A DNA stretch of 47,754 bases, taken from positions 1-47,754 of the forward strand of contig JAGVQM010000033.1 in NCBI GenBank assembly GCA_020051695.1. The letters run 5' to 3'. The first letter of the stretch is position 1. Every line of letters begins with the position of its first letter. The DNA is from Candidatus Zixiibacteriota bacterium. Its GTDB lineage: Bacteria > Zixibacteria > MSB-5A5 > WJJR01 > JAJRUJ01. A model generated the notes under the pieces. That model had not been told where the DNA came from, searched no databases, and saw nothing but the letters and a program-made list of their open reading frames with translations. This document shows, piece after piece, positions 11,368 to 37,728 of this stretch. Position numbers and translations under genes: made by a program.

Positions 11368-11404
11368 CAGGCAATTAACCTGAATGCCGGATCGGGGAGG
11401 AACT

Positions 11405-12433
11405 ATGAACAGCAGAGCGCGCGTCGTGTTCATGAACGTGGCTGTCGTGATGTCATGTTGGCTGTGGGGGGGGATGCCCTCATACGCCCAGGCCATTATT
11501 GCCGATCATAATGCGGTCGGGGAATTCCCCCTGATTCCGGGACCGGTGATCGAGGCCATTGGCGATAACTACGATATTTACTATGTCCATACCTCCCACG
11601 GCAGCCAGATTATGACCGGGATTTCGCAGGTGTATGACGAAGATAACTTCTATGATCCGCCGGTGTTCCACGAAGTCGGCGACGATCTGGGCCATAACGG
11701 CGACCTGACATGGGTCCCGGCCACGCGCGCGTACCTCGATGCCCATCCGGAGTGCACCATGGCCATGTTTTCCTGGTGCGGGGGTGTTTCCGATAATACC
11801 GAGGAAGGGATCAACATTTACCTCGAGGCCATGGAAACCCTCGAAGCCGATTACCCGGGGGTGGTTTTTATCTATATGACCGGACATCTGGACGGCACCG
11901 GTCCCGAGGGCAACCTTTACATCCGCAACAACCAGATCCGGGAGTATTGCGCGGCCCACGACAAGATACTTTTCGATTTTGCCGATATCGAAAGCTACGA
12001 CCCCGGCGGCATCTGGTATCCGTATGAGACCGACGCCTGCGGCTGGTGCGAGACCTGGTGTGCGGCGCATGCCGAATTCGGCTGCACGTGCGGGGAGTGT
12101 GCGCATTCCCATTGCTTCAATTGTTATCAGAAGGGGAAAGCGTGGTGGTGGATGATGGCGCGGGTTTCCGGCTGGACCTCCTCCGGCTGTAACTGTGGGG
12201 CAAAAGGCGACATGGACGGCAGCGGCACGGCCAATCCCGTAGATGTGGCTTATCTGGTTAATTATGTCTATAAAAGTCTGGATGCCCTGGTCGATCCGCC
12301 GAATTGCGCTTTCCCCGCTGGAGATGTAGATTGCGGCGGCCAGATTACCCCGTTGGACGTGGCGTTTCTGGTCAAGCTGGTGTACACCAGCCAGGATGCG
12401 CTGTGCAGCGGCTGTAATCCACCGCCACGATAA
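11405..12433 (+). CDS. Secreted SGNH-hydrolase-like protein with dockerin-like tail
   Basis: A 342-residue exported protein starting at ATG 11405, with GGGGAGG in front. A signal peptide with cleavage after about SYAQA is clear. Residues about 30-255 look like an SGNH/GDSL-type hydrolase fold (YVHTSHGSQI near the start, MFSWCGGVSDNTEEG in the middle, a TGHLDGTG strand), though I cannot assign the catalytic residues with certainty. The segment is rich in Cys, Trp and His (ACGWCETWC, ECAHSHCFNC), perhaps binding metal or forming disulfides. Residues about 262-335 hold two dockerin-like calcium repeats, GDMDGSGTANPVDVAYLV and GDVDCGGQITPLDVAFLV. No cohesin is encoded nearby. The domain may stabilise the protein or anchor it to partners elsewhere. 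Confidence 0.75.
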   Translation: MNSRARVVFMNVAVVMSCWLWGGMPSYAQAIIADHNAVGEFPLIPGPVIEAIGDNYDIYYVHTSHGSQIMTGISQVYDEDNFYDPPVFHEVGDDLGHNGDLTWVPATRAYLDAHPECTMAMFSWCGGVSDNTEEGINIYLEAMETLEADYPGVVFIYMTGHLDGTGPEGNLYIRNNQIREYCAAHDKILFDFADIESYDPGGIWYPYETDACGWCETWCAAHAEFGCTCGECAHSHCFNCYQKGKAWWWMMARVSGWTSSGCNCGAKGDMDGSGTANPVDVAYLVNYVYKSLDALVDPPNCAFPAGDVDCGGQITPLDVAFLVKLVYTSQDALCSGCNPPPR

Positions 12434-12461: not shown

Positions 12462-12489
12462 TTGCGCCTCCGGTGATTGTGATTATTAT
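12462..12489 (+). promoter_or_regulatory. Candidate promoter of the orphan small transcription unit
   Basis: TTGCGC at 12462-12467 and TATTAT at 12484-12489 are separated by 16 bases. Transcription would start near 12496, only a few bases before a very strong ribosome-binding site. Confidence 0.45.
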
Positions 12490-12517
12490 GCCGGTACAGC
12501 GGAAAGGAGGTGGTCGG

Positions 12518-12553
12518 ATGAACATAGACTTAGCTGAGGTGGCTGATACTTAG
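12518..12553 (+). CDS. Possible 11-residue peptide MNIDLAEVADT
   Basis: An ATG seven bases after GGAGG inside an unusually long SD match opens a frame of eleven codons ending in TAG. The acidic peptide resembles no leader peptide I know: it has no run of a single amino acid that would suggest attenuation. Initiation is likely if the region is transcribed. Whether the peptide matters or only the act of ribosome binding does cannot be told from sequence. Confidence 0.35.
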   Translation: MNIDLAEVADT

Positions 12554-12610
12554 CAGGCCCTCGAATCAATATTGGTTGGGGTTTGTTAAGTAAATCCCAA
12601 CAGTTTACCG

Positions 12611-12646
12611 ACCCGGCGGGCCATGACGGCTCGCCGGGTTTTGTTA
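12611..12646 (+). terminator. Rho-independent terminator
   Basis: An 8-bp stem ACCCGGCG/CGCCGGGT at 12611-12618/12632-12639 is followed by TTTTGTTAT. It closes the small transcription unit. Confidence 0.75.
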
Positions 12647-12953
12647 TCGATAGACATTGCCGGAACCGCTGAACGGGTGGCATGGTCTTACCAAACGAAA
12701 AGGGAGCACCGTGGGCAAGGGGATACGCTGCTGCAGCTTAAGTACTGATCAGCACCACTAGTCGCCGCTTTATGCGGTGTTGACTGTTTTGGGAATGAAA
12801 AACGAGTTTCCAATCCAACTTTAAATAAACCACAGATTTACGCCGATTAAGTCATTAGGGGGGTTTCTTGTCCGTGGACCCACAATATAATTTTACGATT
12901 TCTGCGTAAACTGTTTGGAGATTGGGCGTTAATTGCTATATTTGTCCCGTGGT
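12647..12953. other. Non-coding gap before the GH116 gene
   Basis: No gene is visible. A small hairpin CCGC/GCGG at 12765-12777 flanked by AGTC/GACT and followed by GTTTT could be a weak second terminator. A perfect TATAAT at 12886-12891 is a plausible -10 for the GH116 gene, but the -35 is poor (TTTCTT, 16 bases upstream). I compared the 12660-12790 part with riboswitch consensus patterns I know and saw no match. Confidence 0.5.
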
Positions 12954-15900
12954 ATGTACCGTCGTGCTACCCGCCTGTGCATGGAGGTAGGTTTGGCAGG
13001 GACGTGGTGTAAGATCGGCTTTCGGGTATCGGGATTTCTCGTATTATTGGTGTTGTCCGTGACCTTTATGGGGGGAGATTCTCCCTCCACGCAGCTTGCG
13101 GCCGACAGCGCCCCGATCCCCTTCGAACCAGTGCATGTGTTCCCCGGGAACGACAATCACGCGTTTCCCGAGGATTTCACGTTGCCGCGCGGGGCCTGGC
13201 AGCGGGCCATTGGTGATGTTCCCTGGCCGCGCATGAGCAGTGACCCCAACCGGGGGATTGTCATCGGTGGTTTCGGCGCCGGTGCGTTTATGTACAACCT
13301 CAGCGGCTCGTTCGGTCCCTGGGCCGATGAAGTCGGGGAATACAGCTCGCAGCGCCTGGGCGGCGCCGCGTTTCATATTTTTGAGCGGCTTGGTGAGGGC
13401 AGCATGACCCGCTGTCTGTCCGCCGACACCATGATGTTGCCCGCCTGGGAGCAGATCGCGGTCGGCGACGGCATGTATTATGCCCTGCACCCGAAAGGGT
13501 GGTGCGAGTACAGCTGTTTCTCGACCGATATTCGCTCGACTTTCTACAGCCCGATCTTGGCCAACAATTACCGTGAGACATCATTCCCCGTCGGGGTCTG
13601 GCAATACGCCTTCAATAACCCGACGGGCGACACGGCGTTTATCTCGGTGATGCTCACTTGGCCGCACCCGCCGTTCAGCGGCGGCAGGCAGGTCCGCACC
13701 GGGTATTTCAATACGCTGCATGTCTCTCCCGGCAAAATCGGGATTGTCATGAAAGCCGACGATGCGGCCAATACCCCGGAGACCCAGAAATCCGAATGGT
13801 GCATTGCCACCGAACAGGGATCCGGGGCCGTGGTTTCGTACGCCACATGGAACGGCACGGGGGACGGCAGTGACATCTGGAACGGGTTTGCGGATGACGG
13901 CGTCCTTTCCAATGTGATCAATCCCTTTGCCTCGGCGGCAGCGCTGGCGGTCAAGGTAACTGTCCCGCCGGGCCAGACCAAGACTGTCCCCATCATCGTT
14001 TCCTGGGATTTCCCCGTTGTTGAATTCAAGAGTGCCTACGACGGCGGCCGCAGCACCCAGTGGTGGAAGCGGTATTGCGAATATTTCGATACACTCAGCG
14101 ACAATTCCTTTGCCGTCGCCGCCGAAGCGCTTGACAGCAGCGACACCTGGTCCGAGCGCATCGACGAATGGATGGCGCCTTATATCTCCGACCCGCGCTA
14201 TCCCGACTGGCTGCTGTGTGCAGCGTTTAACGAGCTATACTACAATCAATTCGGCGGCTCGTTCTGGGAGTCCGGCCTGCGCTCGGGACATGCCACCGAG
14301 TTTTTGAACCTGCATCCGGGGGACAATAAGAATTTCATTATGGAATCGCAGGCCTACACGCTTTCAGGAAACATCAGTGTCGGCCATTATAGTTCCATCG
14401 TGCATTCGGCGTTCTGGCCCGATATGGAGCATGACCTGCTCTGGTGCCACGCGGATATTATTTTGTATTGGGACGAATGTGACCGTGTCGCGCCTTATCA
14501 GACCGCTCCGGAGATCGGTGCGCCCCGCGATTACAGCAGCGATGATTCGTGTTTCATCGGCGACCCGTTTTTTGCCGTCGACCCCCATGCCTATCAGTCC
14601 CGCGCGCTCCCGTGCGAGGCCGGCGTGACCCATCTCCAGACGGAAACTTCCTCGAAGTTCATCCAGCGGTGCTGGCGGTATTATGCCCTGCATAAGGACA
14701 TCATCTTCCTGTCGTATGTCTGGCCGGCGGCCAAACGCACCTTCCAGTTCATGAAAACCTATGACTGCGAGGCCGAGCCCCGCGATTCACTTCCCGATGC
14801 GCAGGGGTACGACAATACGTACGACGGTTGGGGGATGTACGGCACGGACATGTATTCCGGCGGGTTCTGGGTCGGCGCGCTGGAGGCCCTGGATACCATG
14901 GCGGCGATCCTGGGTGATCCGATCCGTGGTGAGGTGCAGTCCTGGCTGGCAGCGGCGCGGCGTAATCTCGATGCACAGCTCTGGGATGGCGAGGGGTTGT
15001 ACTACCATATAGATACTGACAGCGACTATCCGCAGGCGGTGTTTGCCGATGCGCTGGGCGGCCAGCGGTATAACGAAGCATGGGGCCTTCCTGATATTTT
15101 GCCCCGCTGGAAAATGGATGCGCATCTGCAGAAAGTATATGACGTCTGTGTGGCGCAGAATCCGTTTTATGGCGCGCGGGTCGGGTTGATGCCCGACGGG
15201 TCGTTCGTCCCCACCGGCGATCGTGATACGCATGAATTCTGGGTGGGGTCAACCTACTATGTGGCGGCGATGATGTATCACGCCGGTCTCAGGAACGAGG
15301 CCCTGACCACCGCCTATGGCGCGTTTTACCCGGTCTTTGAAAACGAAATAACGGCGTATTGGTTCAATACTCCGGAGGCGTGGGAGGATGACGGTATCTC
15401 ACCTCGTCCGGATGCTTTTTCCCTTACCCGGCAAGCCGATCACGCGCCGGGGGAGGCACCGATCGACATGTCCGAATCCATGGCGTGGGCGGACTCCCCA
15501 CACCAGTATCAGCGGCCGCGCGCTGTCTGGGAACTGGTCTTCGAAATGGGAGTCTCCGCGCCGGAGATCCCGCTGCAGTTGAAACCGGATGATTTTGCCT
15601 ACCTCGGCGATAACACGCCGACATTTCATTGGAGCAGGACCATCGGGGTTGACGGTTCTTATATCCTGCAATGGGCGAAAAATGCGCAGTTCACCGACCA
15701 GTTACATACCGTGATGTCTCTGCCCGATACCCTGTTGCGGGTACCCGATTCTCTGGCGCTGGACAATGGGCTATGGTACTGGCGGGTGCAGGCGGTCGGC
15801 CCCTCCGGACAACAAAGCGGGTATCAGACCAATCCGTTCTCGCTGGTCATCGATGCCGGTATTCCCTGTGATTGCACGTATCTGGGTGATTGCAACGGCG

Positions 15901-16106
15901 ACGAGCAGATCAACCCCGTGGACGTGGCTTACCTTGTCCAATATGTCTATTTGAGTAAAGGCGATCCGCCCCCGGCCATCCCCAATTGCCCGGCCATCAA
16001 CGGCGATTGGGACTGCGATGATCATATTTATCCGCTGGACGTCATTATCCTAGTCAATTACGTCTTTCGCCAGTTGGGTCAGGGACCCTGTGACCCCTGT
16101 CCCTGA
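12954..16106 (+). CDS. Secreted GH116-family glycosidase with dockerin-like C-terminus
   Basis: A large exported enzyme of about 1,050 residues. A hydrophobic signal segment follows a long basic N-terminus; the start may be ATG 12954 or 12981, neither with a clear ribosome site. Residues about 75-400 fit the GH116 N-terminal beta domain (GIVIGGFGAGAF). Residues about 405-840 fit the (alpha/alpha) catalytic barrel of non-lysosomal glucosylceramidase/beta-glucosidase enzymes. By analogy with GBA2, the Glu in FNELYY (bases 14232-14234) is the likely nucleophile and the Asp of DNTYDGW (14811-14813) the acid/base. A fibronectin-III-like module (about 870-970) leads to two dockerin-like repeats (GDCNGDEQINPVDVAYLV and a degenerate second). 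The substrate is probably a beta-glucoside or beta-xyloside. Confidence 0.82.
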   Translation: MYRRATRLCMEVGLAGTWCKIGFRVSGFLVLLVLSVTFMGGDSPSTQLAADSAPIPFEPVHVFPGNDNHAFPEDFTLPRGAWQRAIGDVPWPRMSSDPNRGIVIGGFGAGAFMYNLSGSFGPWADEVGEYSSQRLGGAAFHIFERLGEGSMTRCLSADTMMLPAWEQIAVGDGMYYALHPKGWCEYSCFSTDIRSTFYSPILANNYRETSFPVGVWQYAFNNPTGDTAFISVMLTWPHPPFSGGRQVRTGYFNTLHVSPGKIGIVMKADDAANTPETQKSEWCIATEQGSGAVVSYATWNGTGDGSDIWNGFADDGVLSNVINPFASAAALAVKVTVPPGQTKTVPIIVSWDFPVVEFKSAYDGGRSTQWWKRYCEYFDTLSDNSFAVAAEALDSSDTWSERIDEWMAPYISDPRYPDWLLCAAFNELYYNQFGGSFWESGLRSGHATEFLNLHPGDNKNFIMESQAYTLSGNISVGHYSSIVHSAFWPDMEHDLLWCHADIILYWDECDRVAPYQTAPEIGAPRDYSSDDSCFIGDPFFAVDPHAYQSRALPCEAGVTHLQTETSSKFIQRCWRYYALHKDIIFLSYVWPAAKRTFQFMKTYDCEAEPRDSLPDAQGYDNTYDGWGMYGTDMYSGGFWVGALEALDTMAAILGDPIRGEVQSWLAAARRNLDAQLWDGEGLYYHIDTDSDYPQAVFADALGGQRYNEAWGLPDILPRWKMDAHLQKVYDVCVAQNPFYGARVGLMPDGSFVPTGDRDTHEFWVGSTYYVAAMMYHAGLRNEALTTAYGAFYPVFENEITAYWFNTPEAWEDDGISPRPDAFSLTRQADHAPGEAPIDMSESMAWADSPHQYQRPRAVWELVFEMGVSAPEIPLQLKPDDFAYLGDNTPTFHWSRTIGVDGSYILQWAKNAQFTDQLHTVMSLPDTLLRVPDSLALDNGLWYWRVQAVGPSGQQSGYQTNPFSLVIDAGIPCDCTYLGDCNGDEQINPVDVAYLVQYVYLSKGDPPPAIPNCPAINGDWDCDDHIYPLDVIILVNYVFRQLGQGPCDPCP

Positions 16107-37097: not shown

Positions 37098-37356
37098 TAG
37101 CATCTCCTCCATTGGCGGGGGTGGGGAAGAGGGCAGCGAGATGCCCACGCGCCGGTAATCCTCCGCCGTTCGGGTGGTTCGATGGGGTAATGGTCAAGTT
37201 TTCGGTTTATCGGTAGGCCGAGTTTTGCCTTCAAGAATTGGAATTACAAAACTCGATTAAAGATGAGTGCGATGTTGCCTGCCCGTATAATGCGGACCCG
37301 CCGCAGCGGATTCTCCTTCAGCTGTCAAACCATATCTTGTCCGTGGACCTGAAAAA
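37098..37356. other. Gap between C39-like lipoprotein gene and tRNA
   Basis: No gene is visible. An inverted repeat CGAGTTTTG/CAAAACTCG lies at 37219-37227/37247-37255, and an isolated TATAAT lies at about 37286-37291 on the plus strand with no useful -35. The promoter of the lipoprotein gene is probably in here. Confidence 0.45.
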
Positions 37357-37429
37357 TGGAGCTGATCGGGATCGAACCGACGACCTGTACGTTGCGAACG
37401 TACCGCTCTCCCAGCTGAGCTACAGCCCC
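37357..37429 (-). tRNA. tRNA-Ala (anticodon CGC)
   Basis: All four arms fold: acceptor GGGGCTG/CAGCTCC, D-stem GCTC/GAGC, anticodon stem GTACG/CGTAC around loop TTCGCAA, and T-stem GTCGG/CCGAT with loop TTCGATC. The third acceptor pair is G3-U70, the identity element for alanyl-tRNA synthetase. Position 73 is A. CCA is not encoded; the gene runs directly into TTTTT. A possible promoter on the minus strand begins at TTGACT (37515-37510). Confidence 0.95.
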
Positions 37430-37728
37430 ATCCAACTCTTTTCTTGCCGGGCCCGACAGACCCCGTCCGGCCGGCGCGGACTAATATATCGTATCGGCCG
37501 GAATTGGCAAGTCAAAATCCCGCACGTATAAAGTATACGGTTTTGACAGGATCGCGGGATTTGCCGCATCTGACCGTTGACTCGGGGAATTTATGGCCTA
37601 AATTCGGGGAGTTGTCGGTGTCTGCCGGGCCAAACCGGGGCACAATTCCCCGGCGGGATCACCGTATACAAATAATGGTATGTTTGTTACGGCATAACCG
37701 CACTATTTCAGCTACTTGAGGGACTCGG

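Follow-up and report, generated by a model that had tools for sequence, protein, structure and literature searches.

Rfam family RF02471 (Ms_IGR-5) is the closest described relative of the RNA element reported here. It is entered in Rfam as "Actinobacteria sRNA", was first obtained from Mycobacterium smegmatis, and is given no function. Ms_IGR-5 is detected by RNA-seq in M. smegmatis (PMC10454040), as is a homolog in S. lividans (PMC8079986), and the S. avermitilis homolog is an independent transcription unit (PMC8780764). Ribosome reads were reported on the homologs of M. abscessus and M. smegmatis; such reads on noncoding RNAs generally may mean binding without elongation (PMC4974804). A literature search for anti-SD small RNAs across Actinobacteria found none.

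Other described systems share parts of the layout. Dual-function sRNAs such as SgrS/SgrT and SR1/SR1P are likewise stand-alone small RNAs that carry an ORF, but their peptide is conserved and functional, whereas for the RNA described here the phyla have only the act and the site of translation in common. Leader-peptide attenuators also have a short ORF ending inside competing hairpins and followed by a terminator, but they have a conserved downstream gene, which this RNA does not. Long SD duplexes at weak start codons are also found in the extended SDs of S. aureus; these lead ordinary genes or uORFs (PMC13009471), whereas our element is an orphan RNA with a 14–15-nt SD and a second SD at the stop. 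What was known is thus an Rfam family without a function; what is new is that its range is far wider, that a micro-ORF is universal, and that the structure differs in part.

An RF02471 homolog in Zixibacteria

The element lies in a stretch of 47,754 nucleotides (hereafter, the window) from a 3.5-Mb Candidatus Zixiibacteriota genome; all its features are on the forward strand. At the Rfam gathering threshold, only a tRNA was found in the window. RF02471 surfaced at a relaxed E-value, with a match over the full length of the model (positions 1–184) that scored 42.5 bits (E = 1.2e-8), 2.5 bits under the curated cut-off of 45 bits. Other Zixibacteria copies score up to 63 bits, and the cut-off is exceeded in 25 of 132 Zixibacteria genomes. 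Judged by sequence, the homology is clear, with the window copy just below the cut-off, and the element, which the earlier note had matched to no RNA or leader family, belongs with RF02471. Both have the same order of parts, namely, a long SD (SD1), the ORF region, GUGAGGUGGCUG, a loop helix, and a terminator-like 3' end. They differ in that RF02471 is annotated as actinobacterial, whereas the window copy is in Zixibacteria.

We placed the RNA gene at 12496–12646 on the basis of the RF02471 match, DNA conservation, a covariance model termed R1 (see below), and the fold z-score. A12496 is the predicted 5' end, and the 3' end was placed in the T-rich tail. The predicted promoter (12462–12489) consists of a −35 box, TTGCGC (12462–12467), and a −10 box, TATTAT (12484–12489), separated by 16 nt, with a gap of 6 nt between the −10 box and A12496. 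A generic sigma-70 consensus scan gave it no score, and the call is based on its position, which is conserved upstream of the relatives. Nitrospinota copies have a near-consensus TTGAC-17-GATAAT 6–7 nt ahead of the RNA start. Behind the promoter, segment 12496–12646 holds in order a 15-nt match to the 16S tail, an 11-codon ORF, a structured 3' half, and an intrinsic terminator (12610–12646) made of a 13-bp stem (12610–12640) and a T-rich tail. The terminator hairpin and T-run were found in all copies inspected from Zixibacteria (34/34) and Nitrospinota (10/10). The genome has one copy of the segment, which, with its own predicted promoter and terminator and no conserved neighbors, stands alone between genes as expected of RF02471. 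The promoter, SD, ORF, and terminator proposed earlier are all present and ordered, beyond chance.

Distribution in four phyla

A DNA search of 98 relatives gave one strong match in each of about two dozen genomes, covering approximately positions 12494–12620 of the window and little beyond. The outcome that would have refuted the earlier note, a lack of conservation or one that disregards the SD, start codon, and stem, was looked for and did not occur; of these features, only the particular stem it proposed failed. The pattern SD1-N(15–45)-GAGGTGRCTGNTNNNTAG occurred in 85 stretches among 84,980 species genomes, which are labeled as Zixibacteria, Actinobacteria, one Sumerlaeia MAG, and one Nitrospinaceae MAG. 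R1 was built from 50 copies and scores the window copy, itself in the training set, at 101.6 bits. It found the element in 48/129 genomes of Zixibacteria, 105/296 of Actinomycetota, 15/18 of Nitrospinota (the phylum of the Nitrospinaceae MAG), and 17/40 of Sumerlaeota (that of the Sumerlaeia MAG), with essentially one copy per genome in all four. Nitrospinota and Sumerlaeota were retained on the grounds that divergent copies of their own are present in most or many of their genomes. A small RNA catalogued as actinobacterial and without function thus occurs in single copy in at least four phyla.

Matches labeled Acidobacteriota (L148), Calditrichaeota (L139), and Thermoleophilia (L133) were left out of the phylum count, since their sequences hardly differ from copies of Actinobacteria or Zixibacteria; judging from this near identity, these labels probably reflect MAG mislabeling or contamination. 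A phage origin was also considered and dropped, viral contigs having no match. Two divergent R1 matches with E-values of about 1e-8 (G007:C12:22196-22334 and G005:C88:45431-45569) come from a sister family within the order of the window genome, the other members of which have no R1 match.

SD1 is complementary to the free tail of 16S rRNA

The 16S rRNA of the source genome ends in ...GGATCACCTCCTTTCT. SD1 (GGAAAGGAGGTGGTC, 12501–12515) pairs with 15 nt of this tail, from GATC through the final TTTCT, and begins approximately 5 nt into the predicted transcript. The anti-SD match noted earlier as 14 bases is real, but its length is 15 when the two G-U pairs are counted. The 14-mer GAAAGGAGGTGRTC has just two exact matches in the 3.5-Mb genome, one in the window RNA and one on the strand opposite to the 16S gene. 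No other SD match in this genome is as long as SD1. A match of 14–15 nt was found in 102/104 copies from the four phyla. Training copies of R1 had been picked for an exact SD1; among the copies found by search alone, 55/57 have a 14–15-nt match. In shuffled sequences with G-U pairs allowed, the longest 16S-pairing run averages 12.6 and reaches 16, so that the 15 nt of SD1 lie within this extreme and length alone is insufficient; the case for SD1 is made by its place, uniqueness, and conservation. The remaining RNA pairs with 16S no better than shuffles do.

An RNA of this kind could serve as a decoy or reservoir that titrates or stores 30S subunits through the 15-nt match, the ORF merely making the capture productive. 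Strong anti-SD pairing is what such a decoy would need, and SD1 provides 15 nt of it to the organism's own 16S tail. The length and conservation of SD1, its location at the very 5' end, and the published ribosome reads (PMC4974804) agree with this reading, but a single gene copy would have to reach near-ribosome expression, and the in-frame stop, kept with codon swaps as described next, would be superfluous. We regard a decoy as unlikely.

A universal micro-ORF with a fixed stop

The ORF (MNIDLAEVADT, 12518–12553) runs over 11 codons from the ATG at 12518 to the TAG at 12551–12553. Within it, 15 nt ahead of the stop, is a second anti-SD-complementary segment, SD2 (GAGGTGGCTG, 12536–12545), with 7–8 nt of complementarity to the 16S tail; it also supplies the 5' strand of helix P1 (see below). 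The ORF results on 104 copies, which are not independent of one another, are as follows: in 103 copies across the four phyla, a stop codon is found exactly 15 nt past the first base of GAGGTG (TAG in 92, TGA in 6, and TAA in 5); an in-frame ATG, GTG, TTG, or CTG start is present in 98 and absent in 6; and upstream stops occur in the ORF frame of 5 copies, whereas the two alternative frames have them in 82 and 92. ORF length is 10–14 codons across phyla, and the SD-to-start distance varies from approximately 5 to 11 nt while the frame stays constant.

The stop codon sits in the 5' strand of a second helix, P2, and its A is often kept despite a broken P2 pair, being unpaired in 37/94 copies. A change from TAG to TGA requires two substitutions. 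Structure alone is insufficient to account for the TAG/TGA exchange, the constant frame at a varying SD distance, and the ORFs of 10–14 codons in separate phyla.

The earlier note's micro-protein holds as far as the ORF is concerned, which is real and universal, but the peptide past EV(A/T) differs across phyla. Indeed, EV(A/T) is all that the peptides MKIDICEVAAT, MISHRTREVAAR, MSSRRFGTSEVAGR, MKIHCRDEVTVV, and MSKMETSEVAVT have in common. In a dual-function sRNA the peptide would be conserved; here, the ORF is universal and the peptide largely not. An active product of 10–14 aa ending in EV(A/T) is an improbable explanation. It would be in keeping with the universal ORF and with a mild synonymous excess among close relatives, where the N/S ratio is 0.50 of neutral. 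Against it, the N-terminal two thirds are wholly different between phyla, and the retention of EV(A/T) is accounted for by nucleotides that are invariant at silent positions too, GAGGTG being fixed third codon positions included. In one copy (L253:1501-1625), a base is missing in the stretch from GAGGTGACTG to the stop, so that SD2 is read in another frame, yet the TTG-to-TAG ORF is still open; this copy is a natural test of RNA versus peptide. By these comparisons, translation and its end point are more clearly conserved than the peptide product.

Since SD1 pairs with the whole single-stranded tail, a factor for 16S 3'-end maturation or quality control was also considered. The span of SD1, from GATC to the final TTTCT, would suit such a role, but the ORF, its stop, and SD2 would be left unexplained, and we consider this reading very improbable.

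Two covarying helices and a competing hairpin

The window RNA (152 nt) folds at −63.7 kcal/mol, compared with −44.3 kcal/mol for shuffles (z = −5.1). Its minimum-energy fold contains P1 (12538–12609; 12538–12545, GGUGGCUG, with 12601–12609, CAGUUUACC), P2 (12547–12592; 15 bp between 12547–12561 and 12578–12592), and the terminator. Between the 3' strands of P2 and P1, AAUCCCAA (12593–12600) is unpaired, and an AAUCC-type motif is conserved at this position in all four phyla. Over 94 copies, P1 and P2 together show 238 two-sided changes versus 75 in shuffles (0/500), with 87.4% of cells paired versus 70.3% when shuffled. These values are from alignment A2, which was fitted to the model; an initial count on a MAFFT alignment (A1) gave a consistent result. 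The signal disappears when the partner strand is slid by one to three columns. Two-sided changes are found at all eight modeled pairs of P2, and in each phylum its cognate strands give better pairing than permuted ones; its partner segment lies approximately 30–130 nt downstream of the stop segment. For P1, which pairs GGUGRCUG, that is, SD2, with CAG..ACC near the 3' end, cognate strands outperform permuted ones in Actinomycetota, Nitrospinota, and Sumerlaeota and weakly in Zixibacteria. The Rfam model has P2 in common with ours, but there the 3' half of SD1 is joined to GCUGCC and the SD2 region to other bases, whereas our comparison favors P1.

In Zixibacteria, an alternative local hairpin, H1, can form between GGUGRCU of SD2 and a 3' strand at 12554–12560. 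Within this phylum, A/G in SD2 covaries with T/C after the stop (p = 1e-5, uncorrected for relatedness). Because H1 covaries with SD2 and would exclude P1, the RNA likely has two states in Zixibacteria.

The stem proposed earlier at 12575–12601 (UUGGG/CCCAA) is formable and kept in Zixibacteria, but it lacks covariation, and other helices, P1 and P2, have the best support. We likewise rejected a pseudoknot that includes this stem: no covariation was seen, and in the minimum-energy fold the G strand of the stem is taken up by P2. Pairing of the SD1 3' half with the middle of the ORF was also discarded, having a pooled signal only and no significant support within any phylum.

A proposed role for ribosome loading

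A frame and stop that are conserved around a peptide that is not point to a purpose tied to ribosome engagement itself. The reading that we put forward, with even weight for and against, is that the function lies in the act of translation and not in the peptide, and that ribosome loading followed by a short round of translation switches the fold of the RNA. As SD1 is near the 5' end and spans the whole free 16S tail, it would capture a 30S subunit very firmly. Such a firm hold could let weak codons start, UUG, CUG, GUG, and perhaps AUU; extended SDs with non-canonical start codons are shown for S. aureus in the work cited above (PMC13009471). The ribosome would then read 10–14 codons, melt P1 and P2, and arrive at the stop. 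With the stop codon in the A site, GAGGUG would lie 6 nt ahead of the P-site codon, an ordinary SD-to-start spacing, and this spacing suggests that the terminating ribosome may be held there. With a ribosome on, P1 and P2 would be open and their 3' strands and AAUCC free; with the ribosome off, both helices would be closed. Candidate outputs in trans are free ribosomes, an RNA target, or a protein at the AAUCC loop.

Sequence comparison supports the ORF, SD1, the position of SD2, P1/P2, and the orphan status; the holding, the switching, and the output are what the proposal would add. Some observations count against these additions. GAGGTG is also constrained by P1, which weakens the argument for holding at SD2. 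The copies with no standard in-frame start (6/104), the weakness of P1 when Zixibacteria are taken alone, and the competition from H1 are further points against the proposal. The sequestration of 30S subunits suggested in the earlier note survives here in modified form: the ribosome idea is kept, and the 102/104 SD1 matches and the published ribosome reads (PMC4974804) fit.

More tentatively, RF02471 may constitute a widespread ribosome-docking class, in which two anti-SD sites bracket a micro-ORF and a ribosome is loaded, advances by 10–14 codons, and is parked at a stop in a bistable hairpin. The RNA would then be a trans-acting sensor of translation, responding to either initiation capacity or termination and controlling no gene of its own. 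The idea is directly testable, as family members occur in tractable organisms (Mycobacterium smegmatis and Streptomyces).

Genomic neighborhood

At 21 Zixibacteria loci, no gene within 5–6 kb was conserved as a neighbor, and no conserved neighbor gene was found across the other phyla, which bears out the description of the element as an orphan transcription unit. Downstream, the RNA is often followed by a gene on the other strand. In Mycobacterium, the locus adjoins an aminodeoxychorismate lyase gene and a nitrobindin-like gene.

These data bear on whether the RNA is a cis-acting leader or attenuator whose downstream gene was lost in the window genome, as the earlier note had allowed. A leader-peptide ORF, the competing hairpins H1 and P1, and a terminator do make up an attenuator layout. 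The idea is largely refuted by synteny, since neighboring genes are not conserved: four phyla share this orphan arrangement, and none has a conserved downstream gene. In addition, the terminator stem and the P1 strand do not overlap, and no antiterminator is therefore seen. A leader or attenuator thus seems very improbable.

In the window, the gene downstream of the RNA (12933–16106, approximately 290 bases past it) encodes a GH116-type glycosidase (Pfam DUF608 and Glyco_hydr_116N). The upstream ORF (11384–12433, 349 aa) has no Pfam or NCBIfam match; by eye, its C-terminus contains two dockerin-like repeats (DMDGSGTANPVDVAYLVNYVY and DVDCGGQITPLDVAFLVKLVY). The sole tRNA of the window is a tRNA-Ala with anticodon CGC at 37356–37430.
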